Shown here one piece after another: positions 12,771 to 36,248 of a stretch of 52,818 bases of DNA. Each line of letters starts with the position of its first letter. The stretch's first letter is position 1. This DNA is from Nitrosopumilaceae archaeon. GTDB taxonomy: Archaea; Thermoproteota; Nitrososphaeria; Nitrososphaerales; Nitrosopumilaceae. The stretch lies in contig JAHELB010000005.1 in NCBI GenBank assembly GCA_024644385.1, positions 1 through 52,818 of the forward strand. Reading direction: 5' to 3'. Below the pieces are notes generated by a model. It was not told the DNA's origin. It saw nothing but the letters and a program-made list of their open reading frames with translations, and searched no databases. The translations under genes were made by a program, and so were the position numbers.

Positions 12771-14651
12771 TTGCAAGTACATCCCTTGAAAATCTCGTTA
12801 GTCATAATTGCCGTAATGTTTTCAATTTCTTTAACATTTACAATTGTGGGATTGGTTACATTTGATCTTAGTGTGCAAGAAATAAAAAAATTATTGGGTT
12901 CTCGAAATGAAGGATTTGCATTTAATATGATTCAAGGATTGGACAAACATATTGAAAAAAGACTTCTTGATTTTAAAGATTTAACTAAATTAGAACTTAT
13001 CCAATTGGCATTAATAAATTCAAATGAAGAGTTTAAAAAAATTGAAGACGTAAAATCGTATTTGAATATTCGAGAACAAGACATTGCAAACACTGGCATA
13101 TTCCCATTTATTGGAACTGCGGTTGGAGAAGTTTTAATTCATGAACTTGAAGATACCGTTGAATTTTATAATGAGGAATATAACTATGATGTAATACAAG
13201 AGTTGTTTGTTACCAATGCGTATGGAGCTAATGTTGCACTAGCATATGGAACGTCTGACTATTCTCAAAGTGATGAAGAATGGTGGCAAGTTACAAAAGA
13301 AAATGGGAGCTATAAGGGAAGGGTTGATTTCAATGAGGACTATGAAACCTATTCAATTGATTTTGCTTATAGGATAGATGACATGGATGGAAATTTCATT
13401 GGTATTATGCGCGTTATGATTACACTCGATGACCTTCTAAGTGAATTTGTTGAAGAGTCTAACCTCCTTACTTCTTCTGGACGCAGTGTTTTGTTATTGG
13501 ATGAAACAGGAAATTCCATTTATTCCGATGAAATAATTACTTTATCTAGTTCTCCCGTACCATACTTTACAAAAATTACTAGAGGTGGCGAAAGTGGATA
13601 TTTCCAATTAAAAGGTGATTTTGATGATTTTAGCCTAATATCTTATGCCCAATCTACTGGTTACAAAACCTTTGAAGGATTTGAATGGATTGTTGTAATT
13701 GAGCAGGACAAATCATCTATCCTTGCTGAATTTGTCGAATTACGTAATTCTATTTTAATAGCCTCAATTGCAGGAATGATTGCCTCTGTTATTGGGGCTT
13801 TACTTATCTCTGGAACCGTCTCTTCCCCCCTAAAACAATTAACTAAAACTGCAAGATCAATTTCAAAGGGAAACTTTGATGTCAAAGTTAGAAAAAGTAG
13901 AATTGACGAGATTCAAACAATAAGCTCATCGATTGAAAAAATGGCAAATGATCTTGAGAAACTAGTTGAAACTGAAAAGCAACTAGCAGAAGCTCATGTG
14001 AAAATAAAAAATGAACGATTATCTGCAATTGGGGAACTTGCAGCTAGTATGGCTCATGACCTGAAAAATCCATTGGCAACAATTAAAAGTTCAGCAATAA
14101 TTTTGCAAAAAAATACAAAGGATGTTGAATTATACGAGGTGGTAGATAGAATGAACAGAGCTATTGAGAGAATGTCTCACCAAATCAACGATGTCCTAAA
14201 TTACGTACGTATCACACCACTCGAATTTGAGCAAATTAAAGTAACTGATTTGTTGTATATGGCAAAAAATTCTCTGACCATTCCAGATAACGTTTCAATT
14301 TCAATTCCTGAATCAGATATTCAAATAAAATGTGATATTGAAAAATTGGAAATTGTTTTTATCAACATCTTCTTAAATGCAATCCAAGCAATAGGAACAG
14401 ATGTTGGTAAAATAGAATGCTCAATAAAACAAAAGGATTCTACTGTTATAATTGATGTTAAAGATTCTGGACCTGGTATCCCTGATGAGATTTTCTCAAA
14501 GATTTTTGATCCTCTAGTTTCATCAAAACAAAAAGGAACTGGCTTGGGCTTGTCAACATGTAAAAATGTTTTAGAACAACACGGCGGATCAATTTCTGCC
14601 CACAATGATCCTACAATATTTACTGTGAATTTACCAATTTCACCCAAATAA
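12771..14651 (+). CDS. Membrane sensor histidine kinase (extracytoplasmic sensor, HAMP, HisKA, HATPase)
   Basis: This 626-residue kinase has TM1 (about 6-29), a roughly 295-residue external sensor with PDC/Cache-like pattern, TM2 (about 326-348), HAMP (about 349-400) and the dimerisation/phosphoacceptor helix AASMAHDLKNP with His429. The ATPase domain follows, with an N box near 530 (NIFLNAIQAI), DSGPGIP near 566 and GTGLGLS near 590. It probably senses a small molecule outside the cell and phosphorylates the CheY-like protein encoded next to it. The start is annotated at TTG 12771, but TTTAAATTT (12748-12756) would also suit the in-frame TTG at 12786. Confidence 0.92.
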   Translation: MQVHPLKISLVIIAVMFSISLTFTIVGLVTFDLSVQEIKKLLGSRNEGFAFNMIQGLDKHIEKRLLDFKDLTKLELIQLALINSNEEFKKIEDVKSYLNIREQDIANTGIFPFIGTAVGEVLIHELEDTVEFYNEEYNYDVIQELFVTNAYGANVALAYGTSDYSQSDEEWWQVTKENGSYKGRVDFNEDYETYSIDFAYRIDDMDGNFIGIMRVMITLDDLLSEFVEESNLLTSSGRSVLLLDETGNSIYSDEIITLSSSPVPYFTKITRGGESGYFQLKGDFDDFSLISYAQSTGYKTFEGFEWIVVIEQDKSSILAEFVELRNSILIASIAGMIASVIGALLISGTVSSPLKQLTKTARSISKGNFDVKVRKSRIDEIQTISSSIEKMANDLEKLVETEKQLAEAHVKIKNERLSAIGELAASMAHDLKNPLATIKSSAIILQKNTKDVELYEVVDRMNRAIERMSHQINDVLNYVRITPLEFEQIKVTDLLYMAKNSLTIPDNVSISIPESDIQIKCDIEKLEIVFINIFLNAIQAIGTDVGKIECSIKQKDSTVIIDVKDSGPGIPDEIFSKIFDPLVSSKQKGTGLGLSTCKNVLEQHGGSISAHNDPTIFTVNLPISPK

Positions 14652-14705: not shown

Positions 14706-15071
14706 GTGTCTGCAAAGAAAACTATTCTCCTAGTAGATGATGATATTGATCTTTTAGAAAATACAGCCTACATGATAAAAAGTATAGGGTATGATGTGGT
14801 TACTGCTGAGGACGGGCAAGAGGCAGTATTAAGGTACAAGGAGATAAGGCCAGATTTGACCCTTATGGACGTAAAGATGCCTAAAATGGATGGTTTTGAT
14901 GCCTTTTTTAAGATAAAACAGTTTGATCCAGATGCCAAAGTAGTTTTAATCACTGCATTTTCCATCGACCAAAAAAAACATCTCAAAGCAAAGAGCATGT
15001 CATTAATTTCTACAATAAACAAACCTTATGATTTTGAACAATTGGAAGAATTAATCAAATCAAATGCCTGA
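14706..15071 (+). CDS. Single-domain response regulator (CheY-like)
   Basis: This 121-residue receiver domain has the acidic pocket Asp11-Asp13, the phosphoacceptor Asp55 (LTLMDVKMPKMDG) and the conserved Lys in TINKPYDF near 107. There is no output domain. It must therefore act by protein-protein contact or as a phosphorelay intermediate. It follows the histidine kinase by 54 nt on the same strand, so the pair is a probable two-component system. The start codon is GTG 14706. Confidence 0.9.
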   Translation: MSAKKTILLVDDDIDLLENTAYMIKSIGYDVVTAEDGQEAVLRYKEIRPDLTLMDVKMPKMDGFDAFFKIKQFDPDAKVVLITAFSIDQKKHLKAKSMSLISTINKPYDFEQLEELIKSNA

Positions 15072-15072
15072 A

Positions 15073-15936
15073 TTACATATTTTCAAGTTTTTTTAATTTG
15101 CTGAATCTGGAATTGTAAAATTTTATTCCTTCATTTACAAAATCATAGTACCATTTTTTTAGTTGTTGATCTTGTTGAAAAATATTTTTCCAAGGTTTAA
15201 TTTCCAATGAAGACTTTTTACCTGAAGCTCTAAATTTGGTAGGTACAAGCAAGTTTGTATAAAACCAGAAGGATATTTGATTGGCTAGATCCTCTTCATT
15301 AATCTGCTCAAAATTATTTTGATATTTCACATTCAGATATGTCATTAATTCATAAACTGGGAAATTTGAAATCTTGGAAATCTGTATGTTATCCATGAAC
15401 AATCCCCCGGCTAAATTTTTTAGTCTATATACTTCGTTTCCTATATTGTCTTTAAGATATTTCCATTTTCCAAAAACTAGGGGTAAAACTTTTTCGTACT
15501 TTTCTGCCATGGTATCAATTTGCTTGTCGGAAAGATCCAAAACGTCCAAGCAATACAAAATCCCATGTAATGATAATCTATATTGGTCAGCAGGAGCTTT
15601 GGCATAACTTTTCCCATCTTTTACTATTATTCCTACTTCTAATAATCCGATGGTATGTTTTCCTCTTGCCATCCTTCCAAGTAAAAGGCGTCTGTATTCT
15701 TTTTCTTTAGTTCTAATTCCAGACGAATTATCCAGATGTGTTTTGGCCATTCCCCACGTAGTCAATGTTCCATTTAGTGCCAAAATTTCAAGCATTCTCT
15801 GTACATTTTCTTGATGTTTTGTGCCTGGTTTTTTCCTAAACGAGTAGCTTCCAAAAAGTCGCTGACAGGTGGGCCTAGTATACATCTTGTATGCATGAAG
15901 ATTACCATAAACTGTTCCTTGATTTTCTGATGGCAC
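15073..15936 (-). CDS. Uncharacterised protein with winged-helix-like N-terminal half
   Basis: This 287-residue protein has no motif I recognise with certainty. Residues 45-130 read like a winged helix: a helix with LEILALNGTLTTWGMAKTH, a basic recognition region (TKEKEYRRLLLGRMARG), then GLLEVGIIV and the wing strand before YRLSLHGILYCL. The C-terminal half is helical with Trp/Phe-rich segments and no catalytic pattern. It converges with the response regulator (one-base gap). A GTG start at 15936 is used. It could be a transcription regulator, but this is low certainty. Confidence 0.6.
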   Translation of the reverse strand: MPSENQGTVYGNLHAYKMYTRPTCQRLFGSYSFRKKPGTKHQENVQRMLEILALNGTLTTWGMAKTHLDNSSGIRTKEKEYRRLLLGRMARGKHTIGLLEVGIIVKDGKSYAKAPADQYRLSLHGILYCLDVLDLSDKQIDTMAEKYEKVLPLVFGKWKYLKDNIGNEVYRLKNLAGGLFMDNIQISKISNFPVYELMTYLNVKYQNNFEQINEEDLANQISFWFYTNLLVPTKFRASGKKSSLEIKPWKNIFQQDQQLKKWYYDFVNEGIKFYNSRFSKLKKLENM

Positions 15937-15985
15937 TCCACATTGTGTAGGGTATGGCCAAATAATAACTTCTCTAAATTAATCC

Positions 15986-16194: not shown

Positions 16195-16262
16195 AGCATG
16201 CCACAAACCCAAAAGTATCGTTAAATAAAGACCTCCGACCATTTTTTTGGAGGGCTTTATTT
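16195..16262 (+). promoter_or_regulatory. AGCATGCCACAAA element, mini-ORF MPQTQKYR and overlapping hairpin
   Basis: AGCATGCCACAAA (16195-16207) is one copy of the recurrent element. Its ATG (16198) opens an 8-codon ORF MPQTQKYR ending at TAA 16222-16224. The stop codon overlaps the left arm of an inverted repeat: arms 16223-16236 and 16249-16262 pair at 13 of 14 positions around a 12-nt T-rich loop. The hairpin lies about 50 nt before the secreted protein at 16315. This geometry resembles a leader-peptide attenuator, but nothing of the kind has been shown for this element in archaea. Confidence 0.55.
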
Positions 16263-16314: not shown

Positions 16315-16947
16315 ATGCCTCAAACTTCCAAACATGTTCCCATGTTCTCAAAGAAAAACTTCCTTTTTGAATTAAATTCTTTTACTACGGGTTTTTTTAG
16401 TAATTCTCAAAAATTTTCGATTTGCATTTTCATAATTTTTCTTTTTTCAGCTAGTTTTATTGGCATTGCTTTTGCTGAGGCAAATGTTTCAAATAATGTT
16501 GAAAAAATCTGTAAGCACCGTTATGAAAATTTCAAGAAAATGGGAGATGAAAATTTTCAAAAACGATATCCGGGCATACCAGAAATGAAAGCTTGTTTAT
16601 TTTTATTCAAGAGTTCTACTTGGGATTTTGAAGGAAAGAATCTAATTGATGAAAAATATTCATCTAAATCGGAAATACAAAAAAATTCAAAAATCATGTC
16701 AAAATACAAGATTGGACAAAGTAAGTATCTTGTAAAATTCGTTATGTGTAAAGAAAATAATTTAAAATCAAATTTTTTGCATGTTTCCACTGAAAAAGAA
16801 CAATTTTTAGGAACAATATCGCGCCCGGTCCAAGAATCATGTGGAAGTTTTTGGGTCATAATGAAAACAGAAAATCCCGATAAGGCTAAATTTTCATGGG
16901 ATTATTCTAGTCAACCCAACTTTCAGATTGCCAGAAAATTGTTCTGA
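16315..16947 (+). CDS. Secreted protein, divergent VCAG-type domain
   Basis: This 210-residue protein begins MPQTSKH, another version of the recurrent leader (ATGCCTCAAAC). The hydrophobic export signal comes later (about 40-58, ICIFIIFLFSASFIGIAFA, cleavage after AFA). The mature part has a helical segment, CKHRYENFKKMGDENF, ending at a second Cys. A beta-rich part follows with KFVMC and ESCGSFWV about 40 residues apart. The same order occurs in the protein at 24180-24899, so they are distant paralogues. A start at the internal Met10 would still keep the signal. Function is unknown. Confidence 0.7.
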   Translation: MPQTSKHVPMFSKKNFLFELNSFTTGFFSNSQKFSICIFIIFLFSASFIGIAFAEANVSNNVEKICKHRYENFKKMGDENFQKRYPGIPEMKACLFLFKSSTWDFEGKNLIDEKYSSKSEIQKNSKIMSKYKIGQSKYLVKFVMCKENNLKSNFLHVSTEKEQFLGTISRPVQESCGSFWVIMKTENPDKAKFSWDYSSQPNFQIARKLF

Positions 16948-16971: not shown

Positions 16972-18378
16972 CTATTCATTTACCATATACTTTAAACTAA
17001 TGTACTCATGTTTTGCCTGAGTCAATTCATTTCTTTGCTTTATGATTTTTTCAGTCAACTGAGAAATCTTTTTTGCAAAGTTGTCTGGTTGGGAACTTTG
17101 TTTTGCCAAATCATCCAAAGATTTTTTGTCTAGGGAAATTTTCTCTTGCAATAATGCTATCTTGATTTCAAGTTCATTTAATAAATTTGAAACATCTTCA
17201 GTCGTAATTATGCTACCTTGAATGGAATTAGGGTCACTGGCATTTACTTTTGCAGAACTTGTTTGGCATGAATATGCCCTTAATGCTTCGCTTAATTTAA
17301 TTGATTTTATTTCAGAATCCGATCTTATCATGACCTCTGGAAACGGAATTTTATTCAAACCTGCACACACCTCAAAGACAAAATTATACGAGGAGATCAG
17401 CGGGTCTGATTCAAGTCGTCCTGCATCAGAATACTGTGGAACTGTCTTAATGGAGTTAACGTGGGGATAACTTTTGGCAGGAACCTCTGTAGGCAATATC
17501 TCTTTGTTTGTCAATTGAGGATTTACAATTACTGGGGATTTGCTGTTTACAATCAGGACATATTGATTTTTTTGCAAGTCTGATCTTGCCACATTTAGGT
17601 CATTTCTAAGACTAATTATTTTGTCAGTCTTTTCAGATATCTTTTGGTTATAGTCTGATGAGGGAGGGTTTTGTTTTATAATTTCAGAGAGTTCCTTTTT
17701 TTCTGAGGCAATTTTTTCTTGAAGATTTGTGACCTTTGATTCTAGTTCTCCCACAATTAATGAAAGATCAGCCTTTTTGACCAAACTTCCTTGGATTGAA
17801 CTGGTATTTGCTGCTTTAATTATTGTTGTACTAATTTGACAGGACATCGCAGGTATGTTGCTTGATAAAAGAACAGACCTTGATTCGCTATCTGATGTTA
17901 TCAAAACCTCAGGTGAACGAATAAGACTAGATTTTGCGCAGGCCTCAAAAACATAGTTGTATGTTGTAATAATCTCTGGCTTTGTTTCATGGATTCCAGT
18001 GTTAAAATAAAGTGGAACTATTCTTATGGTATTAACATCCCCAATGTTTGATATTTGTGGTTTATTTGTAAAATCCTCTATAGTTTTTGCCCAACCTACC
18101 TGCAGCATTTTGTCAAAAGAACTACTAGTGACACAAGCAGCAGAATTTGAGCCGGCACGAATAATCAACTTTAATCCTGTTTTACAAACCACATCGGTAG
18201 GTTTTACTCCGTCATCTATCTGTGCCCTTGGAGATGGAATGGTGGAGGCTGCACCATATGATAAACTAACAGTGCCTGATAACAGTATTGCAAGGACAGT
18301 TATTGAAAGTAGTTTGTAGTAGTTCAATTCGAATTTAAATTTCCTGGTTACTAGAGGGTTTTGGTGACTCAAAATCAA
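16972..18378 (-). CDS. Secreted protein with two VCAG-domain plus coiled-coil modules
   Basis: This 468-residue protein has an N-terminal signal/TM (about 23-43, ending SYGAA). Then comes a short region with CKTGLKLIIRAGS and ACV...GWAK, common in thaumarchaeal exported proteins. Two modules follow, each a beta domain with YxFVFExCA, PEVxIxSDSE and a second Cys about 35 residues on (about 140-210 and 310-385). Each domain is followed by a helical hairpin of 65-75 residues with heptad spacing and a central turn (about 210-275 and 385-460). Paralogues lie at 25106, 28520 and 33547. The start is TTG 18378. A structural cell-surface role is inferred. Confidence 0.75.
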   Translation of the reverse strand: MILSHQNPLVTRKFKFELNYYKLLSITVLAILLSGTVSLSYGAASTIPSPRAQIDDGVKPTDVVCKTGLKLIIRAGSNSAACVTSSSFDKMLQVGWAKTIEDFTNKPQISNIGDVNTIRIVPLYFNTGIHETKPEIITTYNYVFEACAKSSLIRSPEVLITSDSESRSVLLSSNIPAMSCQISTTIIKAANTSSIQGSLVKKADLSLIVGELESKVTNLQEKIASEKKELSEIIKQNPPSSDYNQKISEKTDKIISLRNDLNVARSDLQKNQYVLIVNSKSPVIVNPQLTNKEILPTEVPAKSYPHVNSIKTVPQYSDAGRLESDPLISSYNFVFEVCAGLNKIPFPEVMIRSDSEIKSIKLSEALRAYSCQTSSAKVNASDPNSIQGSIITTEDVSNLLNELEIKIALLQEKISLDKKSLDDLAKQSSQPDNFAKKISQLTEKIIKQRNELTQAKHEYISLKYMVNE

Positions 18379-18435: not shown

Positions 18436-18591
18436 TCAAATCTCATCATCTACGAATATCCAAGACAAACCTATTACGTCCATTGCACAGGTGTTTTGCC
18501 TTGACACCAATTCAAGATGAATTTTTTCCTTTTGTTGGAAAGTCTGATTTTCAGAGGTTGCTTTCCCTAATTCCAAATCTAATTGGTTCAT
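18436..18591 (-). CDS. 51-residue small protein, copy A of an unnamed family
   Basis: The protein begins MNQLDLELGKATSENQ and ends NTCAMDVIGLSWIFVDDEI. It is nearly identical to the protein at 26061-26222, sharing an ELVSRQNTCAMDVIGLSW core, which shows that both are real genes. One Cys, no membrane segment, acidic C-terminus. The frame is open upstream through the leader (MPQINKH at 18642), so a 68-residue version is also possible. It lies 57 nt upstream of, and on the same strand as, the secreted VCAG protein at 16972-18378. I recognise no known family. Confidence 0.7.
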   Translation of the reverse strand: MNQLDLELGKATSENQTFQQKEKIHLELVSRQNTCAMDVIGLSWIFVDDEI

Positions 18592-18645
18592 ATAAAAAAT
18601 AACTTTATCAGATATATGTTCATGCTTATTTATTTGTGGCATGCC
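18592..18645 (-). promoter_or_regulatory. GGCATGCCACAAA leader element upstream of small protein A
   Basis: The element occupies 18633-18645 on the minus strand. Its ATG (18642) begins MPQINKH and, unlike the copies at 26 and 35 kb, has no stop codon before the small-protein ATG exactly 51 nt downstream. The leader therefore reads in frame into the protein. Confidence 0.6.
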
Positions 18646-18731
18646 TTTACTAAAACAACACATTTTCTGGTTTACTTGATTTTGGCCTTAATTTCATAAA
18701 TTTTTTGTTGTTAAAATTTTGAATTTTTTAT

Positions 18732-19031
18732 TCAATATCTCAAATTAAAAGACTCTACCAAATCTCGAAACTTTCTATATTCTTGAATGAAATGAAATCC
18801 TTTCTCGGTAATTGTAAAGACATGATTTCGTTTCTCCAATTTTGATTCCACCAATCCTGCGGAAATTAATTTCCTGCAGTGTTCTAAAGTTGGGTGATGA
18901 GAGAGTTTTGCACGCCTTGACACAGATGAAACTAACACTCCTTCTCGACCGCCATCTATGATTACCTCCAAAACATCACCCAAAATACGCATGTGGGTTC
19001 GATTTTTATTTAATTTCTGATTCATTTCCAT
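18732..19031 (-). CDS. Winged-helix DNA-binding protein (HTH_45-like)
   Basis: This 99-residue protein has the archaeal winged-helix pattern: a first helix RILGDVLEVIIDGGREGVLVS, recognition region SHHPTLEHCRKLISAGLVE, then a wing VFTITEKGFHFIQEYRKF. This is the short HTH_45/PadR-like type, which usually binds DNA as a dimer. A degenerate leader element (19154-19166) points at it from upstream. It precedes small protein A and the secreted protein at 16972 on the same strand, so it may regulate that group. That is inference from position. Confidence 0.8.
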   Translation of the reverse strand: MEMNQKLNKNRTHMRILGDVLEVIIDGGREGVLVSSVSRRAKLSHHPTLEHCRKLISAGLVESKLEKRNHVFTITEKGFHFIQEYRKFRDLVESFNLRY

Positions 19032-19153: not shown

Positions 19154-19166
19154 TCTGTGGTATGCC
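19154..19166 (-). repeat. Degenerate copy of the GGCATGCCACAAA element
   Basis: The minus strand reads GGCATACCACAGA. The central ATG is changed to ATA, so no MPQ leader can start normally. It is oriented towards the winged-helix gene at 18732-19031. Confidence 0.4.
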
Positions 19167-19243
19167 ATTAGGGGAAATTTGAAAAACCTTCTCCTAAATT
19201 ACTGTGCAACTTTATTGGAAACTCCAAATTTAACTCATTGTTA

Positions 19244-19256
19244 GGCATTCCACAAA
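19244..19256 (+). repeat. Degenerate copy of the GGCATGCCACAAA element
   Basis: The plus strand reads GGCATTCCACAAA. In the ATG-equivalent frame it would read (I)PQNKIYT-stop, similar to the MPQTQKYR mini-ORF but starting with ATT. It lies about 40 nt before the gene at 19296. Confidence 0.4.
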
Positions 19257-19295: not shown

Positions 19296-19697
19296 TTGAC
19301 AAACATGGCTATCGTGACTTCAAACGAAATAATTTCCCTTGAGACAGCCTGTAAAAACCTTCTAGAAATGGATAAGGTAAGACATGTTGCTGTAATTAGC
19401 AAATTAGGAAAACTTGTAGTGGGCCAGTTTAAGCCAGGAGTAAGACCCTACTTGGAAAATGACCAGATCAAAATGGTTTACATGCAACTGATGCTGGACC
19501 TAAAAATGAGACAGGAACTAGATGAAATTCTGGGACCAATAGACTATATTACATCCAGACGAAAAAATATTTCCATTATCTGTGTTCCTACTGAACACTT
19601 TCTGGTAGTAATAAGTACGGAGAGAAATGTGAGTTCTAGTAAAGTTGTGACTAGGGCAGAAGAACTATTTGATATAATTAATTTAAATGGCATTTAG
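19296..19697 (+). CDS. Roadblock-like thaumarchaeal protein (DUF6659-type)
   Basis: This 133-residue alpha/beta protein has a core with RHVAVISKLGKLVVGQF followed by two strands, IDYITSRRKNISIICVPTEHFLVVISTE. This recalls the Roadblock/LC7 fold and a small family I know only from Thaumarchaeota. The function is unknown, and GTPase regulation or chemosensory signalling are possibilities. A TTG start at 19296 or ATG at 19305 is possible. TTTATAC (19263-19269) is a TATA candidate. A secreted-protein gene follows after 23 nt. Confidence 0.65.
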   Translation: MTNMAIVTSNEIISLETACKNLLEMDKVRHVAVISKLGKLVVGQFKPGVRPYLENDQIKMVYMQLMLDLKMRQELDEILGPIDYITSRRKNISIICVPTEHFLVVISTERNVSSSKVVTRAEELFDIINLNGI

Positions 19698-20854: not shown

Positions 20855-21028
20855 TTATTTTGTGCTTTCTTGAATAGATTTTTTCTGTTCCCATAACTGT
20901 TCATTTAAACCATGACACTTACAATCTTCTGATCTCCCCTTGCAGTTTTTTTGATGTAACGGTTTATCACATTTGTTACAGGTTGGGTCTCTCCAACTGG
21001 CCTGGTTTCCACAATTAACACATCGCAT
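20855..21028 (-). CDS. 57-residue zinc-ribbon protein
   Basis: The ORF starts MRCVNCGNQASWRD. It carries CxxC (3, 6), CxxC (17, 20), Cys29, and CKC (36, 38) followed by His39, enough ligands for two metal sites. The spacing of the first two pairs fits a rubredoxin-like zinc ribbon. It is the last and most downstream member of a run of four small zinc proteins on the minus strand. The frame is short but its Cys density and position support it as real. Confidence 0.6.
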   Translation of the reverse strand: MRCVNCGNQASWRDPTCNKCDKPLHQKNCKGRSEDCKCHGLNEQLWEQKKSIQESTK

Positions 21029-21059
21029 CTTGATTAGATCCTTTTTGGTTTTTTATTTT

Positions 21060-21425
21060 TCATATTTCTACACTCAAAGATTTATGAGAAACTATATTGA
21101 CATATGAAACTAAATTTTGGCATGTCTCATGTGTGGGTACATTTTTAATTGCATTACATTTGGCACATTTTCTCACAGTAGCCTTTTTACAACATGTGCA
21201 GGTTGAAACAGGTACTAGGGGGCCTTTACATAAACTGCATTCATAAAAAATATTTTTTGAGAGGCTAGCTTCATCATAGACATTTGTAAACCCTTTTTGA
21301 TGGTCTGGAGTTTTTTCAAATGTTGGCGCAATCAAGTGATTTTTGATGAAACTTATTCCTCTCATGGGACTCACATGAATAATATCATCAATAATTATTT
21401 GACATTTGCTGGATATTTGTGGCAT
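21060..21425 (-). CDS. Zinc-ribbon protein beginning with the MPQ leader sequence
   Basis: This 121-residue protein has a C-terminal half with CSLC, CTCC, CAKC and a further Cys, likely two zinc sites. The N-terminal half (residues 1-65) has no recognised domain. The start codon is the ATG of a GGCATGCCACAAA element (21416-21428), so the protein begins MPQIS. An internal Met21 start is possible. It sits 8 nt behind the next zinc-ribbon gene, suggesting an operon. Nucleic-acid or protein binding is a plausible but unproven role. Confidence 0.6.
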   Translation of the reverse strand: MPQISSKCQIIIDDIIHVSPMRGISFIKNHLIAPTFEKTPDHQKGFTNVYDEASLSKNIFYECSLCKGPLVPVSTCTCCKKATVRKCAKCNAIKNVPTHETCQNLVSYVNIVSHKSLSVEI

Positions 21426-21428
21426 GCC
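21416..21428 (-). repeat. GGCATGCCACAAA element at the start codon of a zinc-ribbon gene
   Basis: Perfect 13-nt copy on the minus strand. Its ATG (21425-21423) is the annotated start codon of the 121-residue zinc-ribbon protein. Confidence 0.6.
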
Positions 21429-21433
21429 TTATT

Positions 21434-21646
21434 CTAAAATGAAATTAGGGTTCCATGTTTTAGAGGAGTTCCTATTTTTCTGTTAATTCCACTCTCGTCT
21501 AACCTGAAACAAAAACCTTCATGAAATCGTTCAATTGTCTTTGTGGTGCATATTCTACAAATGAATTGTAAAGGGGCTTTACATTTTCCACAAAGTGAAT
21601 AATTTAACAATAAACCTCCGCAATTCCTGCAAGAATCATCAGGCAT
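21434..21646 (-). CDS. 70-residue zinc-ribbon protein
   Basis: It begins MPDDSCRNCGG and carries CxxC (6, 9), CGKC (19, 22), CRIC (30, 33) and a later Cys, so at least one complete zinc ribbon. The hydrophobic spacing between the pairs (LLLNYSLCG) is typical of stand-alone ribbon modules. It is flanked closely on both sides by similar small genes on the same strand (17-nt and 8-nt gaps). No enzymatic motif is seen. Confidence 0.6.
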   Translation of the reverse strand: MPDDSCRNCGGLLLNYSLCGKCKAPLQFICRICTTKTIERFHEGFCFRLDESGINRKIGTPLKHGTLISF

Positions 21647-21663
21647 TAAAATCCCTCGGGTTT

Positions 21664-21858
21664 TTAGTGAACCAACTGTACTAACTGGGAAGGATTGTTG
21701 CGGAATTGATTTGCCATGTACATTATTTTTTCTCCTTCAGGCATTGGATTGGCACATTTTCCACAAAGTGGCCTTATCACTAGTGCATCATAATCGATTT
21801 CACCAATAGGGGTCTTACAAGTAAAGCAGACGATTGGCTTTGTGTCATAGTCATTCAT
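21664..21858 (-). CDS. 64-residue zinc-ribbon protein
   Basis: It starts MNDYDTKPIVCFTCKTPIGE, with CxxC at 11/14 and CGKC at 32/35, forming one zinc ribbon of the RPB10-like spacing. It resembles the N-terminal part of RNA polymerase subunit N/Rpb10 (CFTC...G) but lacks the second half of that fold, so I do not call it rpoN. It is the first gene of the zinc-ribbon run and is preceded by a leader element with mini-ORF MPQINRH, 37 nt upstream. Confidence 0.62.
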   Translation of the reverse strand: MNDYDTKPIVCFTCKTPIGEIDYDALVIRPLCGKCANPMPEGEKIMYMANQFRNNPSQLVQLVH

Positions 21859-21894: not shown

Positions 21895-21920
21895 TTAATG
21901 GCGATTAATTTGTGGCATGC
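21895..21920 (-). promoter_or_regulatory. GCATGCCACAAA element with mini-ORF MPQINRH
   Basis: The minus strand carries GCATGCCACAAA (21920-21909). The ATG at 21918 opens seven codons, MPQINRH, closed by TAA at 21895-21897. The next gene start is 36 nt further on (21858). The same heptapeptide pattern MPQxNxH-stop recurs at 26010 and 35071. Confidence 0.6.
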
Positions 21921-22002
21921 TTTTTTACAAATATGGCAGGCCACAATTGTATGAATGACCTTTAATTTTGATTTCTCAAATAAAAATGAGGAATTGATTC
22001 GT

Positions 22003-25105: not shown

Positions 25106-25675
25106 CTAACTTCCTTTAAGGACGTAGAGTAATCTATAGTACTCTGACCTAGCATCTCTTAACTCCTTTCTTAAATCTACAAGATTTGACCCAATTTCAT
25201 TTAATTTTGAAATTTCAACTACCTTTGTTGGAGTGTTTCCAGGAATTGTATTGAGTAGTTCCTGTAAATTATTATTTTGCAAGGCAATGTTTGACTTTAT
25301 CTTGATTAACTTCTTTTCAGCGTTATCAATCATTGTATTGAGTTTTGCTTTGTTTATTACTTTGATTTTGATGTTTGCTGGATCAAAGGCTTGAATTTGA
25401 GTTGCTGTTGTAGTACAGGTTCCCATTGAAATTACTTTGCTTAAATGAACGGTTTTTACTTCAGCAAAAGAGGTTACGATAACTTCTGGAGCCCTCATAT
25501 TTACTGCATCACCTGCACATACCTGAAATAGCACAGTGTGAATATTTTCGACGCTTGTTGGTGCGATAGTTAAAACCTTGGTTGTTGGTTTTTCAGCAGC
25601 AAATGCTTGATTTGTTCCGGCAAAAATTAGAGCTGTTGCCAAAATTGTAATTATTACGGTTAATTTTTTATTCAA
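25106..25675 (-). CDS. Secreted protein with one VCAG domain and helical hairpin
   Basis: This 189-residue protein has a signal peptide (about 5-26, ending NQAFAA). One beta domain (about 45-118) carries VLFQVCAGD, APEVIVTS and a second Cys in MGTCTTTA. A helical hairpin (about 120-186) follows, with heptad Leu/Ile and a PGNTP turn. It is the minimal form of the module that is doubled in the proteins at 16972 and 33547. Its closest relative in the window is at 28520 (VCAGD...RAPEV). The start is TTG 25675. A degenerate leader element (25890-25902) points towards it. Confidence 0.75.
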   Translation of the reverse strand: MNKKLTVIITILATALIFAGTNQAFAAEKPTTKVLTIAPTSVENIHTVLFQVCAGDAVNMRAPEVIVTSFAEVKTVHLSKVISMGTCTTTATQIQAFDPANIKIKVINKAKLNTMIDNAEKKLIKIKSNIALQNNNLQELLNTIPGNTPTKVVEISKLNEIGSNLVDLRKELRDARSEYYRLLYVLKGS

Positions 25676-26004
25676 TTTTTTTCACCCCCACTTAGTCTTC
25701 TAAGTTAAATTTCCTGAGCTGTAAAATTGCTCACAACCCCTTCATACCTTCTAATGGTTTTGTTTGAAGTGTACCATCCTACTATATCTAAGGTACAGAA
25801 AGATTTTCGATTAGTGGATTCCTTATAGAACAAATTTCCAGCTTTCATAAAATATCATTTGCAAACCATTATTAGATAATACCCTGCCTATTGTGGTATG
25901 CCTCTTGGTTACTCTGGTTCTTGATTTTTTAAACCATCAAGGGTAAAGTTTGTAGTTTTCTCATAGTTGATTTGTGAAGCTAGTCTATGATAATATTTTT
26001 GGAC
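25676..26004. other. AT-rich intergenic region
   Basis: About 330 nt without a convincing gene. It contains one degenerate GGCATACCACAAT element (25890-25902, minus strand) and a short plus-strand frame at 25898 (MPLGYSGS) that I regard as chance. It probably holds divergent promoters for the secreted protein at 25106 and the small-protein cassette at 26005. Confidence 0.4.
25890..25902 (-). repeat. Degenerate copy of the GGCATGCCACAAA element
   Basis: The minus strand reads GGCATACCACAAT, with ATA in place of ATG followed by CCA CAA TAG. It faces the secreted protein gene at 25106-25675, 215 nt away. Confidence 0.4.
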
Positions 26005-26060
26005 AAGGCATGCCACAAACTAATGGGCATTAACAAATATTTCCCTGCCATTGTACTTGC
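26005..26060 (+). promoter_or_regulatory. AAGGCATGCCACAAA leader cassette with mini-ORF MPQTNGH
   Basis: The element is 26005-26019. ATG 26010 opens MPQTNGH and TAA 26031-26033 closes it. The small-protein ATG follows 51 nt after the leader ATG. The first 50 nt match the copy at 35026-35075 (opposite strand) at all but four positions. Three of the four changes (Thr codon ACT/ACC, Gly codon GGG/GGA, and one past the stop) leave the peptide unchanged, and none alters it. Confidence 0.65.
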
Positions 26061-26222
26061 ATGAACCAATTAAATTTGGAATTAGGGAAAGCAGTCTCTG
26101 AAAATCAAATTGCTTTTCCACAAAAGGAAAAAATTAATCTTGAATTGGTGTCAAGACAAAACACCTGTGCAATGGACGTAATAGGTTTGTCTTGGATGTT
26201 CGTAGAGGATGATGAAATTTGA
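26061..26222 (+). CDS. 53-residue small protein, copy B of an unnamed family
   Basis: It begins MNQLNLELGKAVSENQ and ends CAMDVIGLSWMFVEDDEI. It is near-identical to copy A (18436-18591), differing by a two-residue insertion and a few conservative changes concentrated in the middle. The conservation at protein level over two distant loci supports translation. Single Cys, acidic tail, no signal. It lies 82 nt upstream of the fibronectin-III protein at 26305 on the same strand. No known family is recognised. Confidence 0.7.
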   Translation: MNQLNLELGKAVSENQIAFPQKEKINLELVSRQNTCAMDVIGLSWMFVEDDEI

Positions 26223-26304: not shown

Positions 26305-28368
26305 GTGACTAAAAACAAAGTGAACAAAAGTATGATTTCTATTCAATCTTTAAGTAGTAATATTATTAGGAAAAGTACCATGAGACTACATTTTTTAGCT
26401 GTATTTTTTGTTTTATCTGCAGTTTTGCTGGTTACAGGAGCTCATGTATCATTTGCCCAAACAGCAACACCAACTGCACCTGAACCGATAATAGATTTAG
26501 CTCCAATCCCAGGAAACGAAGAGGTTAGACTTGATTGGAGTGCACCTTTCGACAATGGGGCGCCTATAACTAGCTACAAAGTAATAATGTGGCAAACAGG
26601 TTCAGATGTTACAACTACATATCCAAATCTTAGCACCTCGACATCAACGACAATTACTGGCTTAAAAAATGGAGTATCATATAGTTTCAAAGTTTTTGCA
26701 ATAAATTCTGCTGGAACCAGTGCTGATTCTAATATTGTCTTGACAACCCCATCAAAATCCATAATACCACCTGAGCCAATCACCGATTTAGTTTCAATCC
26801 CAGGAAACGAGGAGGTTAGACTTGTTTGGAGTGCACCTTTCGACAATGGGGTGCCTATAACTAACTACAAAGTAATAATGTGGCAAACCGGTTCAGATGT
26901 TACAACTACATATCCAAATCTTAGCACCTCGACATCAGCGATATTAACTGGCTTAAAAAATGGAGTATCATATAGTTTCAAAGTTTTTGCAATAAATTCT
27001 GCTGGAACCAGTGCTGATTCTAATATTGTATCATCCAAACCAGTAGCAGACGCGCCCTTGGTTGGAGTCCCATCTAAAATAAACACTCTTGTAGCCACCA
27101 GAGATGACGGTAAGGCAAATCTTTCTTGGACCAAACCCAATTCCAATGGTTCATCTATTACCTCCTTTGTGATTACATACTGGCAAGTCGGTACAAATGA
27201 TTTTTTCAAAAAAACTGTCACAGCTGATGCCACCAAAGCTCAGGTAACGGGGTTAACAAATGGTGTATCTTATGCCTTTAAAATAAACGCCAAAAATGGA
27301 GTAGGATTTGGTCCTGATTCTAATATAGACTCTGCAACCCCCTCAAAATCAACCACAGCCTCAGTTCCAAACCAAGTTAGAAAGGTAATTGCCACACCAA
27401 GTGATGGCCAGGTTTTTTTATCGTGGATTGAACCTTCTGATAACGGCGCATCTATTAGCAGTTACACGATAACTGTTTCCAAGAGAGGATCAAACGTTTA
27501 CACCACTTATCCTAACCTACCTGCAACAACACAAGCAACAATATCTGATTTGACAAATGGGCAAACCTATGAATTTACGGTTAGTGCTGTAAATTCAAAG
27601 GGAACAGGAAAAGCATCTGCTCCAACCTTTGCTATCCCAAATAATAAAAACCCAATATCCATCTCTAATCTCAAAGTAACACCTGCAAATGAAAAGGTAA
27701 AATTATCTTGGTCAATATCAACATCAGATCTTGAAAAGATATCAGGTTATAGGATTAGAGTCTATGAAAGCGGCTCAAGCTCCTTTGAAACTCATTCTCT
27801 TTTAGGAAAAACTACAAACTTTACCCTTGATGGTTTGAAAAATGGAAAACCATACGGTTTCCAGGTATTCACGGTAAGTTCTGAGGGTTTGGGGCCAGGA
27901 TCTAGAATTGTATCTGCAACTCCATTTGTCCCAATATTGGTTTCTCCAGATGCCCCAGGACAAATCAAGGATCTCAAAGCAGTTCCAGGAGATTCAAAGG
28001 TAACTCTTTCATGGACTGCTCCTTCAGATAAGGGATCGTCAATTACTCAATATAGGATTACCCAGGTAAAGGCAAACTCTGATTCCTTTAAAACAATTGA
28101 ATATTCTGGAACTACAAAGTCTGCTGTTATTACAGGACTACAAAATGAGGTTACATATAATTTCAAAATTCAAGGAAAAAATGCAGTTGGATTGGGTCCA
28201 GAGTCAAATACTGTTTCAGTGATACCAAAATCTTCACTACCCCAACCCACAATTCCTGCTTGGATTAAAACAACTGCTCAATGGTGGGCAGAAGGCAAGA
28301 TCTCAAATCTTGAATACTCCAAAGCAATAGAATGGCTAATCAATGAAGGAATTATTAGGATAAAATAA
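26305..28368 (+). CDS. Secreted multi-fibronectin type III protein with C-terminal WWxxG module
   Basis: This 687-residue protein has a signal peptide (Met28 onward, HFLAVFFVLSAVLLVTGAHVSFAQ) and about six Fn3 domains. Each shows the pattern P-x-(6)-L-x-W-x-P-(x)-N/D-G-x-x-I-x-x-Y and L-x-N-G-V-x-Y-x-F-x-V. A C-terminal module IPAWIKTTAQWWAEGKIS follows at about 650-687. Domains 1 and 2 are a recent tandem duplication of a 291-bp unit. The annotated GTG start at 26305 precedes Met28 by an unusually long N-region, so the true start may be internal. Likely a cell-surface adhesin or S-layer partner. Paralogue: 30164-31849. Confidence 0.85.
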   Translation: MTKNKVNKSMISIQSLSSNIIRKSTMRLHFLAVFFVLSAVLLVTGAHVSFAQTATPTAPEPIIDLAPIPGNEEVRLDWSAPFDNGAPITSYKVIMWQTGSDVTTTYPNLSTSTSTTITGLKNGVSYSFKVFAINSAGTSADSNIVLTTPSKSIIPPEPITDLVSIPGNEEVRLVWSAPFDNGVPITNYKVIMWQTGSDVTTTYPNLSTSTSAILTGLKNGVSYSFKVFAINSAGTSADSNIVSSKPVADAPLVGVPSKINTLVATRDDGKANLSWTKPNSNGSSITSFVITYWQVGTNDFFKKTVTADATKAQVTGLTNGVSYAFKINAKNGVGFGPDSNIDSATPSKSTTASVPNQVRKVIATPSDGQVFLSWIEPSDNGASISSYTITVSKRGSNVYTTYPNLPATTQATISDLTNGQTYEFTVSAVNSKGTGKASAPTFAIPNNKNPISISNLKVTPANEKVKLSWSISTSDLEKISGYRIRVYESGSSSFETHSLLGKTTNFTLDGLKNGKPYGFQVFTVSSEGLGPGSRIVSATPFVPILVSPDAPGQIKDLKAVPGDSKVTLSWTAPSDKGSSITQYRITQVKANSDSFKTIEYSGTTKSAVITGLQNEVTYNFKIQGKNAVGLGPESNTVSVIPKSSLPQPTIPAWIKTTAQWWAEGKISNLEYSKAIEWLINEGIIRIK
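26505..27035 (+). repeat. Tandem 291-bp repeat within the Fn3 gene
   Basis: The segments 26505-26744 and 26796-27035 are in register at 291 bp (97 codons) and differ at only about ten positions over 240 nt. The low divergence compared with the other Fn3 domains of the same gene indicates a recent in-frame duplication of one domain. Confidence 0.85.
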
Positions 28369-31978: not shown

Positions 31979-33373
31979 TTGAAAGTTGGTTATAATAATT
32001 CAAAAATTATTGTACTGACTGATGAAGAAGAAACGGATCCCACTCAAGAATTTAATGCGTTAGGCAACACCATAGCTTCAATAATAAAAGATTCTCCTCC
32101 AAGATTTACTCTCGGGATCTATGGTGAATGGGGAACTGGAAAATCAACTTTAATGAAACTAATCGAAAATAAATTAAAAACTAATGACAACTCACGAGAC
32201 CAGAAAATTCTTCATATTTGGTTTAATGCTTGGAAATTTGAACGAGAAGAACAATTTGCAGCTATCGCCTTGTTGAAAACCATTGCATACAAAATGACTG
32301 GGCAGGATAAACTTGACTCTTTATCAAAAACAATACGGAAAAGCCTAAAAATTCTTGGAAAAGATCTACTTCAGAAAATTGCAACGGGAGCTTTGTTAAA
32401 CGAAAAAGGAGTTGAAGCGGCAGAAAATTCCTTAAACCGAAACATGGAGTTTTTAGAGAAAATTGATGGATTGGATAAGGATACCATCTATTTTGATGGG
32501 CTTGAATCCATTCGTATAAAAATTGAGGAAATTAGAAGGGCGAATCCAGAATTCAGATTAGTTGTATATATTGATGATTTAGATAGATGCTCACCTAAAA
32601 TGGCCCTTGAAGTTCTTGAATCAATCAAGGTTTTCTTAGATATGGAAGGATTTGTTTACGTTATAGGAGTTAGTCATACCACTGTTTCCAAATTGATAAG
32701 CCAGGCGTACAAGGATACTGGAATCGATGGAGTGGAGTACATAAAAAAAATTATTCAAATTCCAATTAAACTCCCAGAGTGGTCCCAGGAAGACGCAAAA
32801 ATTATTTTAAATCAAAAAATTATTCCAAAGCTTTCTTCTAAATATCAGAAAATTTTTTCTGAGGGTAATGCTCAAACATTAATTTCTGAATTGGAACAAA
32901 ATCCCAGAAGAATTAAGAGACTTGTCAATAATCTAATGATTGCCCATGAAACATTTTCGTTGGAAAAAGATAATGAATTAGATCTTACTGCCCTATTTCT
33001 CTTTTCAATTCTTAAGAAAAGATGGCCTCTGGTTTTTCAGTACTATGTGAAATCCTCAGATAATTTTAAAAATTTGGTTATTGATTGTGATGATATTTGT
33101 AGAGCAGATCACTTCAAGGAGTATGAAGATGCTTTAAAGTTCAATCCTTCGGAACAAGCAGATCAAATAAAGACAAGGTGGGAAGTGGCTTTAAAGCAAT
33201 ATGATTTAAGGAGTAACTTGGCGCATATTTTAGAATTAGATCGAGAAGGAGTTCATTTTATAGATAGTTATGGAGAAAAATTAAATGAAATAAAGGATTG
33301 GAATTTGTATGGGCTGGCAATAGATATCATTGAAGAGGTTGATTCACAACATATTCCTAAAATCCCATTGTAA
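31979..33373 (+). CDS. KAP-type P-loop NTPase
   Basis: This 464-residue STAND/KAP NTPase has a Walker A GEWGTGKST (49-57) after a short lead, then W-x-N-A-W-K-F-E-R-E. Walker B is VVYIDDLDRCSP (Asp199, Asp200, Asp202), followed by KVFLDMEGFVYVIGVS and an arginine-finger-like region NPRRIKRLVNN. KAP proteins without transmembrane helices exist in archaea, and I see none here. Some bacterial relatives belong to defence or signalling systems. Flanked by secreted-protein genes but without defence neighbours, its role here is unclear. The start is TTG 31979. An AT-rich stretch precedes it. Confidence 0.87.
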   Translation: MKVGYNNSKIIVLTDEEETDPTQEFNALGNTIASIIKDSPPRFTLGIYGEWGTGKSTLMKLIENKLKTNDNSRDQKILHIWFNAWKFEREEQFAAIALLKTIAYKMTGQDKLDSLSKTIRKSLKILGKDLLQKIATGALLNEKGVEAAENSLNRNMEFLEKIDGLDKDTIYFDGLESIRIKIEEIRRANPEFRLVVYIDDLDRCSPKMALEVLESIKVFLDMEGFVYVIGVSHTTVSKLISQAYKDTGIDGVEYIKKIIQIPIKLPEWSQEDAKIILNQKIIPKLSSKYQKIFSEGNAQTLISELEQNPRRIKRLVNNLMIAHETFSLEKDNELDLTALFLFSILKKRWPLVFQYYVKSSDNFKNLVIDCDDICRADHFKEYEDALKFNPSEQADQIKTRWEVALKQYDLRSNLAHILELDREGVHFIDSYGEKLNEIKDWNLYGLAIDIIEEVDSQHIPKIPL

Positions 33374-33546: not shown

Positions 33547-34836
33547 TTATCGATATATTTGAAGTAGTAATCTACTTAGTTCGCCCTTGGCAGAAATTAT
33601 ATCACTTCTCAATTTGGATATGCTTTCTACCTTCATGGTTAGTTGTTCATTGAAGTCTTCTGCCCTGTTTGGATCATGAACCAAGGTCTTCATACTTTCT
33701 TTTTCAGATACGAGTTGTTTTGTGAGGTCGTCGATCTTTTTCTCTAGTTGTGTTATCTTGTTAGATGAATCAGCGTTTCCAGCAACGTTTACTGTAATAC
33801 TTTCAGAGTCTGTTGCCCCAATTTTTGCTGAAGTAAATTGGCATGTTTTAGGTGCTATTTTATCTCCAAGTTTAACATTAACGCTTTCTTTATCTGAGGA
33901 AATCATTATTACTGGAACTCTGACTTGTTCCTCTCCTGCACATGCCTCAAACACTACATCAAAAGTATTTGGTGATGCCACTGAGGGGAGTACAGAAATT
34001 TTGTTGGCCAAATACCCTGTAATTGGGGTCCCAGAAAATGTCAGTTTATCTAATTGAAGATTTGATTTTGTAGGTGTGTATAAAACAAAGTACATTCGTT
34101 GCAAATCTGCTCTTGCATCATTTAGTTGCTTTCTCAAATCTATAATTTTATTTCCCAATTGCTTATTTGCCTCTGTGGCTTCTTTACCAAAGGTTTTTTT
34201 CACTTCATTTAGTTCCATTCTAAGAGAATCTACTTTTGCTGCTGCTGCCTGGATCTTTTGAGAAATATCTCCTTTGCTAACTAAAGTAGCTGAGATTGAA
34301 TCGGGGCTAGCAGCTTTGATTATAGTAGCACTTGTTACACACGAATTTTGGGCAACTGTTTCAACTAACTCATATCGTTTTGTCTCGCTATCTGAGGTGA
34401 TTAATACCTCTGGGGATACCAAAGATTGAGTCACTGCACATACCTCGAATACATAATCATAACTTCCGACGGATACTTTGGGTGATAATTTGCCAAGGTC
34501 ACTTTTAATTGGAGTTACAATTACCTTGTTAATTTTTCCAGCAGGTGATGAAAGTTTTGTAATGAAATCTTTTAGTTTTGCCTCGTCAATGGGTTTTGCC
34601 CAGCCGTTTTCGACTAATTTTTTAACACTGTCTGGCTTTACACAAGCTGGAGAATTTTTCCCTTCCCTGATCACTTTGAATAATCCTGTATCACAAATGA
34701 CTTTATCAGATGAAATTCCAATCTTTACTTGTTTTTTAGGGGCAAGAACATCTGCATAGGCTGGAGCTGTTAGTGACATTACAAGAATTACTGAAAGAAT
34801 TGAAGCAAATAATATTGCGTGATTAATTTTCAACAT
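33547..34836 (-). CDS. Secreted protein with two VCAG-domain plus coiled-coil modules
   Basis: This 429-residue protein has a signal peptide (about 6-29, ending PAYADV). A region with ICDTGLFKVIREGKNSPACVKP...GWAK follows, then a first VCAG domain (YDYVFEVCAV, PEVLITSDSE, NSCVTS; about 125-195). The first helical hairpin is about 195-255. The second VCAG domain is FDVVFEACAGEEQ, VIMISSDKES, KTCQFTS. A C-terminal hairpin with heptad Leu/Ile closes the protein (ITQLEKKIDDLTKQLVSEK). Overall arrangement equals that of 16972-18378. ATG start, 52 nt after the small protein at 34889. A filamentous or scaffold-like surface role is inferred. Confidence 0.77.
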   Translation of the reverse strand: MLKINHAILFASILSVILVMSLTAPAYADVLAPKKQVKIGISSDKVICDTGLFKVIREGKNSPACVKPDSVKKLVENGWAKPIDEAKLKDFITKLSSPAGKINKVIVTPIKSDLGKLSPKVSVGSYDYVFEVCAVTQSLVSPEVLITSDSETKRYELVETVAQNSCVTSATIIKAASPDSISATLVSKGDISQKIQAAAAKVDSLRMELNEVKKTFGKEATEANKQLGNKIIDLRKQLNDARADLQRMYFVLYTPTKSNLQLDKLTFSGTPITGYLANKISVLPSVASPNTFDVVFEACAGEEQVRVPVIMISSDKESVNVKLGDKIAPKTCQFTSAKIGATDSESITVNVAGNADSSNKITQLEKKIDDLTKQLVSEKESMKTLVHDPNRAEDFNEQLTMKVESISKLRSDIISAKGELSRLLLQIYR

Positions 34837-34888: not shown

Positions 34889-35020
34889 CTAAAAAATTCC
34901 CCTTAGGTCTTCCCAGGTAATTTGACTTTGACAAATCTTAACCCCTTCTAGATTTGATTCTCTTTTTACCTGAGGAATTGATGGTTCAAATTTCCTTGCT
35001 TCCAAAATTATTTGGCTCAT
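34889..35020 (-). CDS. 43-residue small protein, divergent copy C of the small-protein family
   Basis: It begins MSQIILEARKFEPSIPQVKRESNLEG and ends CQSQITWEDLRGIF. The first 20 residues line up with copies A and B (MxQxxLExxK ... PQ), with the C-terminal half divergent. The start-codon context (ATGAGCCAAATAA) matches copy B at most positions, and the ATG is 51 nt after the leader ATG exactly as in A and B. It is directly upstream of the secreted protein at 33547-34836 on the same strand. Confidence 0.55.
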   Translation of the reverse strand: MSQIILEARKFEPSIPQVKRESNLEGVKICQSQITWEDLRGIF

Positions 35021-35075
35021 GTAAAAACAATGGCAGGCAGATATTTGTTAATGTCCATTGGTTTGTGGCATGCCT
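35021..35075 (-). promoter_or_regulatory. AAGGCATGCCACAAA leader cassette with mini-ORF MPQTNGH
   Basis: The element is 35061-35075 on the minus strand. The ATG at 35071 opens MPQTNGH and TAA 35048-35050 ends it. A TATA-like TTTAAAT (35092-35098) lies about 24 nt before the ATG, so the mini-ORF could start at the 5' end of the transcript. The leader is nearly identical to that at 26005. Confidence 0.65.
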
Positions 35076-35091
35076 TAATCCGCCTTTATCA

Positions 35092-36069: not shown

Positions 36070-36121
36070 ATTGATAATCTATCTTTTTTTAAAAATGTAC
36101 TGTAAGGAGACATGTGAAAAA

Positions 36122-36248
36122 GTGAGAGAAAAAGAACATTCAATACATATTTTTTCCTTCTCTCACACTTTTCTAAATTGTATTTCTACCTCCAGAGAAG
36201 GTTTTCATATTATTTGATTAAAGAGTATTTTTCAGTTTTTGGCATGCC
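36122..36248 (-). promoter_or_regulatory. GGCATGCC element with mini-ORF MPKTEKYSLIK and hairpin, upstream of the TPR gene
   Basis: The element (36236-36248, minus strand) reads GGCATGCCAAAAA. ATG 36245 opens MPKTEKYSLIK with TAA at 36210-36212, similar to MPQTQKYR at 16198. Farther downstream on the transcript GTGAGAGAA (36122-36130) and TTCTCTCAC (36158-36166) form a 9-bp hairpin extended by A/T pairs across a two-base bulge. The TPR gene starts 53 nt later. Same order as at 16195-16262: leader peptide, hairpin, secreted-protein gene. Confidence 0.5.

Follow-up and report, generated by a model that had tools for sequence, protein, structure and literature searches.

The window, by which we mean the whole 52,818-nt stretch of contig JAHELB010000005.1 from a Nitrosopumilaceae archaeon, contains three loci, near 18, 26 and 35 kb, where a conserved 41-bp element precedes a small open reading frame and a gene for a large secreted protein. 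The element comprises box A (AAGGCATGCCACAAA), a variable spacer and a BRE/TATA-like box B. An initial annotation of this DNA had placed a "leader ATG" 51 nt before the ATG of the small protein at each locus, and we confirmed this distance (26010/26061 on the forward strand, 18642/18591 and 35071/35020 on the reverse strand). However, the "leader ATG" is the centre of a palindrome, GGCATGCC, within box A. The features of the three loci are as follows.

26005-26019, forward strand: box A (AAGGCATGCCACAAA), 26-kb copy, 0 mismatches, including the "leader ATG" at 26010; matched by element model R1 (E 2.7e-9)
26025-26042, forward strand: box B (BRE/TATA-like), 26-kb copy, from the ungapped alignment of 25 sites
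26061-26222, forward strand: small protein P0001, 53 aa, with a probable leaderless start 51 nt past the box A ATG
26305-28368, forward strand: secreted fibronectin-III repeat protein, second gene (Pfam fn3, E 2e-82); GTG start uncertain, ATG at 26332
18633-18647, reverse strand: box A, 18-kb copy, 0 mismatches
18610-18627, reverse strand: box B, 18-kb copy, from the same alignment
18436-18591, reverse strand: small protein, 51 aa, sharing 82% identity with the 26-kb protein; start at +51, probably leaderless
16972-18378, reverse strand: secreted coiled-coil surface protein with a WING-49 domain, second gene (NCBIfam NF058652, E 3e-17); TTG start uncertain
35062-35076, reverse strand: box A, 35-kb copy, 0 mismatches; the locus of the initial annotation
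35039-35056, reverse strand: box B, 35-kb copy, from the same alignment
34889-35020, reverse strand: small protein P0003, 43 aa; probable leaderless start at +51
33547-34836, reverse strand: secreted coiled-coil surface protein with a WING-49 domain, second gene (NCBIfam NF058652, E 2e-19)

The distances from the stop of the small ORF to the start of the surface gene are 82, 57 and 52 nt, as had been reported, with the GTG and TTG starts of two of the three genes uncertain. The WING-49 domain is N-terminal in both coiled-coil proteins, and the gene order of the fibronectin-III unit is the same in another species (L019/L146). A separate TATA box may precede the 35-kb surface gene (TTTATAT at -27 relative to 34836). 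Also among the surface genes, 31979-33373 encodes a 464-aa protein that by eye resembles a KAP-type P-loop NTPase.

When 25 sites were aligned without gaps, two conserved islands emerged, box A and box B, the latter with an A(A/T)ATAAT-like core, and the spacer between them was variable. A 41-nt model, built from sequence only and excluding the start codon, was searched in 61 genomes of the family. The present genome has approximately 16 copies of the element, ten of them in the window. Allowing at most one mismatch, AAGGCATGCCACAAA has 11 matches in the 1.56-Mb genome, six of them in the window, and the reversed control has none; thus, the repeated core is not due to chance. Further copies in the window are listed below.

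25890-25902, reverse strand: box A (GGCATACCACAAT), oriented divergently to the 26-kb copy; a 47-aa ORF starts at 25848 (+51) and is followed by a secreted protein (25106-25675)
21416-21430, reverse strand: box A; the GTG at 21374 (+51) is the start of a 104-aa zinc-ribbon protein (21060-21374)
21909-21923, reverse strand: box A (AAAGCATGCCACAAA); a 64-aa zinc-ribbon ORF starts at 21858 (+60)
19154-19168, reverse strand: box A, followed by a short ORF and the gene of a winged-helix HTH_45 protein (18732-19031)
19242-19256, forward strand: box A; a Roadblock/LC7-like protein (19305-19697), of a family present in 6 genomes, is encoded downstream
15932-15944, forward strand: box A (GGCACTCCACATT) at the regulator locus, overlapping the regulator start codon on the opposite strand; a 43-aa ORF lies at +51 (15986)
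16195-16207, forward strand: box A (AGCATGCCACAAA) upstream of a secreted protein of ~200 aa (16315-16947)

At 21909-21947 two box A copies stand back to back in opposite orientation, ~12 bp apart (21921 on the reverse and 21935 on the forward strand), and close divergent pairs also occur at three other loci (L012, L007, L181). Site-specific inversion sites were considered for divergent copies and set aside, the orientation of the copies relative to gene starts fitting promoters. The reverse strand of 20855-21858 carries a run of four small zinc-ribbon/CxxC proteins (57, 121/104, 70 and 64 aa), three of which have homologues that recur in regulon clusters of other genomes.

The 51-nt offset recurs within the window (25902/25848 and, with a GTG start, 21428/21374 on the reverse strand; 15932/15986 on the forward strand), on other contigs of the same genome (C8, C31, C59) and in other species. 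We evaluated it on hold-out clusters, taken from genomes left out of model construction, counting as a start any ATG or GTG that opens at least 35 aa. Such a start lies at offset 51 or 52 in 33 of 54 hold-out sites, where every other offset has at most three; the background is 0.73% per random position, and the spacing is therefore not a chance finding. Over all loci examined, an ATG or GTG start was found at 51/52 in 58/94 sites. The genes starting there include small GLSW proteins, 90-117-aa zinc-ribbon proteins, secreted proteins, a Roadblock/LC7-like protein and others; in one genome (G069, L196), a surface protein of the same family as those of the window starts directly at +51 of the element. 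A spacing shared by so many unrelated genes points to promoter geometry and by itself does not prove duplication of a cassette.

Other features of these sites agree with a promoter. As expected for an archaeal TATA box, an A(A/T)ATAA-type stretch is conserved ~20-26 nt upstream of the start codon; a counterpoint is that TATAA begins ~25 nt before it, 3 nt nearer than the mode of the genome (28). A pyrimidine (C or T) stands at -1 in 54/58 loci, compared with 46% among ATG-start genes of this genome that have free upstream space, and this provides the pyrimidine-purine initiator of a leaderless start. Taken together, the TATA-like box just upstream and the pyrimidine at -1 fit initiation of transcription at the start codon. 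Transcription would thus begin at or beside the start codon, yielding leaderless or nearly leaderless mRNAs, and this would place the start codon 51-52 nt past the ATG of the palindrome. We consider it well supported by sequence comparison that the "leader" is a promoter element with near-fixed geometry and that it defines a regulon.

The small proteins are not restricted to this genome, their family being found in other Nitrosopumilus and Nitrosarchaeum genomes. They have ~43-63 residues, often with AMDxxGLSWIF near the C-terminus, and related forms end in a zinc ribbon. When ~85,000 genomes were searched with the small-protein alignment, seven loci were recovered, all in Nitrosopumilus or Nitrosarchaeum MAGs. 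At six of the seven, two of which are copies in G007, the element is present and the ATG of the matched protein lies precisely at +51. Locus L145, the seventh, overlaps another (L143) on one contig, with its match on the opposite strand, and has a further element with the start at +52. No match was found in Pfam for the small proteins or in NCBIfam for the one searched there, and a sequence search of the PDB gave nothing useful. A viral origin was rejected, since viral contigs contained no relative of the small protein.

The proposed link of the small ORFs to surface genes is supported statistically. The next gene was readable at 22 of 26 small-ORF loci, and in 17 of these its product has a strongly hydrophobic N-terminus (signal-peptide- or membrane-like, a crude proxy), as opposed to 21% of ORFs genome-wide (binomial p 3e-8, which is overstated because the loci are related). 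The simplest ideas are that the small ORF might encode a cytoplasmic adaptor, or that as a first cistron it might couple translation of the surface gene. At one locus (L051/L008, contig C31), the gene 14 nt beyond a small GLSW protein encodes a 140-aa phasin-like protein in place of a surface protein.

Could the conserved sequence instead be translated, or act as RNA? In the former case, an ORF of the MPQTNGH type would be translated and would control the small protein and the surface gene by attenuation or coupling. Both the 26- and the 35-kb leaders do read MPQTNGH followed by a stop, with differences in third positions only, and at 14/94 sites an ATG or GTG in the leader position starts a frame of 35 aa or more. 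However, the "leader ATG" is replaced by ATA, AGG, ACT or ACG at 29/58 loci, which argues against a leader peptide, and the frame is open or closed and the leader length varies without pattern: at 18642 it runs on into the small ORF, as the initial annotation had noticed, and the corresponding fibronectin-III locus of another species reads only MP before a stop. Furthermore, leader and gene are separated by a conserved TATA-like box. Given the loss of both ATG and frame, we rejected the leader peptide, which we regard as very improbable. A structured, riboswitch-like RNA leader transcribed upstream of the small ORF is more doubtful still. Box A is highly conserved, and an AATGG/CCATT stem can be drawn by eye in the 26- and 35-kb copies. 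The spacer is variable, however, no consensus RNA structure was found in the 25 aligned sites, and no Rfam family matched the element. In the same alignment nothing conserved precedes box A that might act as its promoter. The RNA reading was rejected for lack of a fold and of an Rfam family, the mir-type matches in the window being below gathering scores. These matches fall at 36109-36179 on the reverse strand, in a hairpin whose resemblance to miRNA precursor models is weak (E 0.03); it is probably a terminator-like inverted repeat, and an imperfect box A lies beside it at 36248.

The initial annotation had interpreted the three loci as one duplicated cassette of leader, small protein and surface gene, and in a stronger form this reading makes it a mobile or recently duplicated unit copied as a whole, from which the spacing was inherited. 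The similarity it relied on is real. Box A of the 26- and 35-kb copies is identical in 13/13 positions and the following 41 bases in 34/41, within a match of 86 nt at 85% that extends into the small ORF, and the 26- and 18-kb copies are 83% identical along ~230 nt that begin shortly ahead of box A and end beyond the small ORF; a secreted-type protein follows most small ORFs (17/22, above). On the other hand, the stretches upstream of box A resemble each other little (17-23 of 60), on which ground we rejected a mobile cassette, and the 51/52 spacing is found in many species before unrelated genes with unrelated sequence between the boxes. The view of the three loci as related units, each with an element, a small protein and usually a surface gene, thus holds, but by itself the spacing does not establish their duplication. 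Duplication can account for some of the copies but not for the spacing itself, and as a full explanation we consider it quite unlikely.

The copy of box A at 15932-15944 overlaps the start codon of a neighbouring gene, a position expected for autoregulation. This gene belongs to a 3.2-kb block that recurs in the clusters and consists of genes for a membrane histidine kinase, a receiver-only regulator and a protein of ~285 aa.

12771-14651, forward strand: membrane sensor histidine kinase, 626 aa, with dCache-like, HAMP, HisKA and HATPase domains; homologues adjoin the regulator in 11 other genomes
14706-15071, forward strand: receiver-only (CheY-like) response regulator, 121 aa (Response_reg, E 2e-23)
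15073-15936, reverse strand: candidate transcription factor P0004, 287 aa, winged-helix-like; proposed from co-occurrence, an AF2 model (pLDDT 87) and a start codon inside box A

The first two genes have the hallmarks of a two-component system: the Pfam domains HisKA, HATPase_c and Response_reg and, by reading, an H-box (MAHDLKNPL) and a phosphoacceptor-type Asp in LMDVKMP. The genes for the candidate factor and the receiver are convergent and do not form one operon; they are adjacent in 12 genomes, in 11 of which the kinase family is also present at the clustering threshold used. The start codon of the factor gene lies within a reversed box A in 11/11 genomes checked.

Searches of Pfam and NCBIfam assigned no family to the 287-aa protein. 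Its AF2 model, built from 26 sequences (a model from 11 sequences was poor, pLDDT 48, and was replaced), has a pLDDT of 87 and a helix-helix-helix-strand-strand order at residues 40-121. Foldseek found no significant match to this model in the PDB (best E 0.035), although many MarR-type winged-helix regulators are among the weak matches. Judging from the model, the protein looks like a winged-helix regulator; having neither a recognised family nor a significant fold match, it is not filed as a member of the ArsR/MarR-type family. Paralogues of this regulator (L220-L226, L212-L218) are ~40-55% identical, number up to four per genome, and also occur in genomes without the element. In several of them TTGCGGT immediately precedes the ATG and a TATA-like box is located ~30 nt upstream, a layout suggesting parallel regulons.

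Within Nitrosopumilaceae the element has a patchy distribution: it was detected in 25/61 genomes of the family, with at least three copies in 15, and is absent from many near relatives. A close homologue of the candidate factor (E<1e-100) is present in 15/15 genomes with at least three elements and in 1/46 others (Fisher p=2e-13, which overstates independence because the genomes are related). The genomes are mostly MAGs and interrelated, so that all p-values are only indicative. Element and factor gene thus co-occur across genomes. A search of 121 genomes of the order found the factor only in Nitrosopumilaceae. Similar results were obtained with a second set, genus g12, in which the element has 7, 7 and 13 copies in three new genomes carrying a close orthologue, is absent from four genomes with only a paralogue, and in seven genomes without the factor is absent except for one 18-nt fragment match. 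As a counterexample, G023 has two good sites and the factor was not detected there. In three genomes of one genus (G055, G066, G074), all 16 scored sites read CCGCA rather than CCACA and the factors are divergent, which is what coordinated change of site and protein would produce.

The kinase, the receiver and a zinc-ribbon protein also largely co-occur with the element, and co-occurrence alone therefore does not single out the factor. The same promoter could be bound by another protein of the island, for example the ~100-aa zinc-ribbon protein or the HTH_45 protein (18732-19031), leaving the 287-aa protein some other role. The zinc-ribbon family of the 21060-21374 protein is present in regulon clusters of 12 genomes, and HTH_45 is a DNA-binding fold. 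However, the HTH_45 group occurs in only 5 of the genomes, too few for a master regulator, and this candidate was rejected as such; moreover, it is the 287-aa family that is winged-helix-like and whose start codon overlaps box A in every genome checked. A different binder thus appears unlikely, and sequence comparison strongly suggests the 287-aa protein as the factor. In sum, the locus very probably encodes a three-gene signalling regulon with a composite promoter, in which box A would be bound by a factor, most likely the 287-aa protein, and the mRNAs would be leaderless or nearly so.

For the operation of such a regulon we infer a phosphorelay responding to an outside signal, activation of the targets, autorepression and leaderless transcripts, along with the direction of control. 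The kinase would sense an extracellular ligand via its dCache-like domain and phosphorylate the receiver, which would alter binding of the factor to box A. In this scheme box A is the sequence that a specific transcription factor would recognise, and box B, a few bases on, would serve as the BRE/TATA region. The factor may control ~16 promoters in the genome in addition to its own gene, its predicted targets being small GLSW-type proteins followed by secreted or surface proteins, zinc-ribbon proteins and a Roadblock/LC7-like protein. At the targets box A would act from upstream of the TATA box, a position typical of activation, and at the factor's own gene from over the start codon, a position typical of repression. 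More generally, we favour, with some reserve, the view that an undescribed, Nitrosopumilaceae-specific group of winged-helix-like regulators forms a three-gene unit with a kinase and a stand-alone receiver, and that this unit drives a patchy surface and secreted regulon through one rigid promoter with leaderless first cistrons of 45-60 aa; the paralogues may run parallel regulons.

Little is known of gene regulation in ammonia-oxidizing archaea; for this system, sequence comparison yields a joint proposal for the sensor kinase, the receiver, the candidate DNA-binding protein and the site and genes on which it would act. The targets being largely surface and secreted proteins, the system may govern remodelling of the cell surface in response to an outside signal. 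The element also brings to light a family of very small proteins, which annotation can easily overlook or give a wrong start. An open-access literature search revealed no paper on the box A motif or the 287-aa regulator.

Archaeal promoters can have activator sites upstream of BRE/TATA and a pyrimidine-purine start, with the start codon at or near the transcription start. What differs here from activator promoters in general is that a single site-TATA-start geometry, with a near-fixed 51/52 nt, is repeated over many genes and species. The nearest published statement located comes from a census of archaeal two-component systems, which reported that some thaumarchaeal receiver-only genes adjoin oppositely oriented genes for predicted ArsR-type DNA-binding proteins (arCOG03067, for example Nmar_0452-Nmar_0453), and that most receiver-only regulators lie outside conserved neighbourhoods, so that their functions could not be inferred (PMC5847659). 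The unit described here is similar in combining a kinase, a stand-alone receiver and a separate candidate DNA-binding protein, and differs in that the latter has no Pfam or NCBIfam family, the kinase lies within the unit and a set of target promoters has been identified. It also resembles the methanogen systems FilI/FilR1/FilR2 and LtrK/LtrR, where a sensor kinase acts on a winged-helix or HTH regulator and FilR2 is a stand-alone receiver (PMC5847659); in FilR1 and LtrR, however, the DNA-binding domain is fused to the receiver, whereas here receiver and candidate DNA-binding protein are encoded by separate genes on opposite strands.
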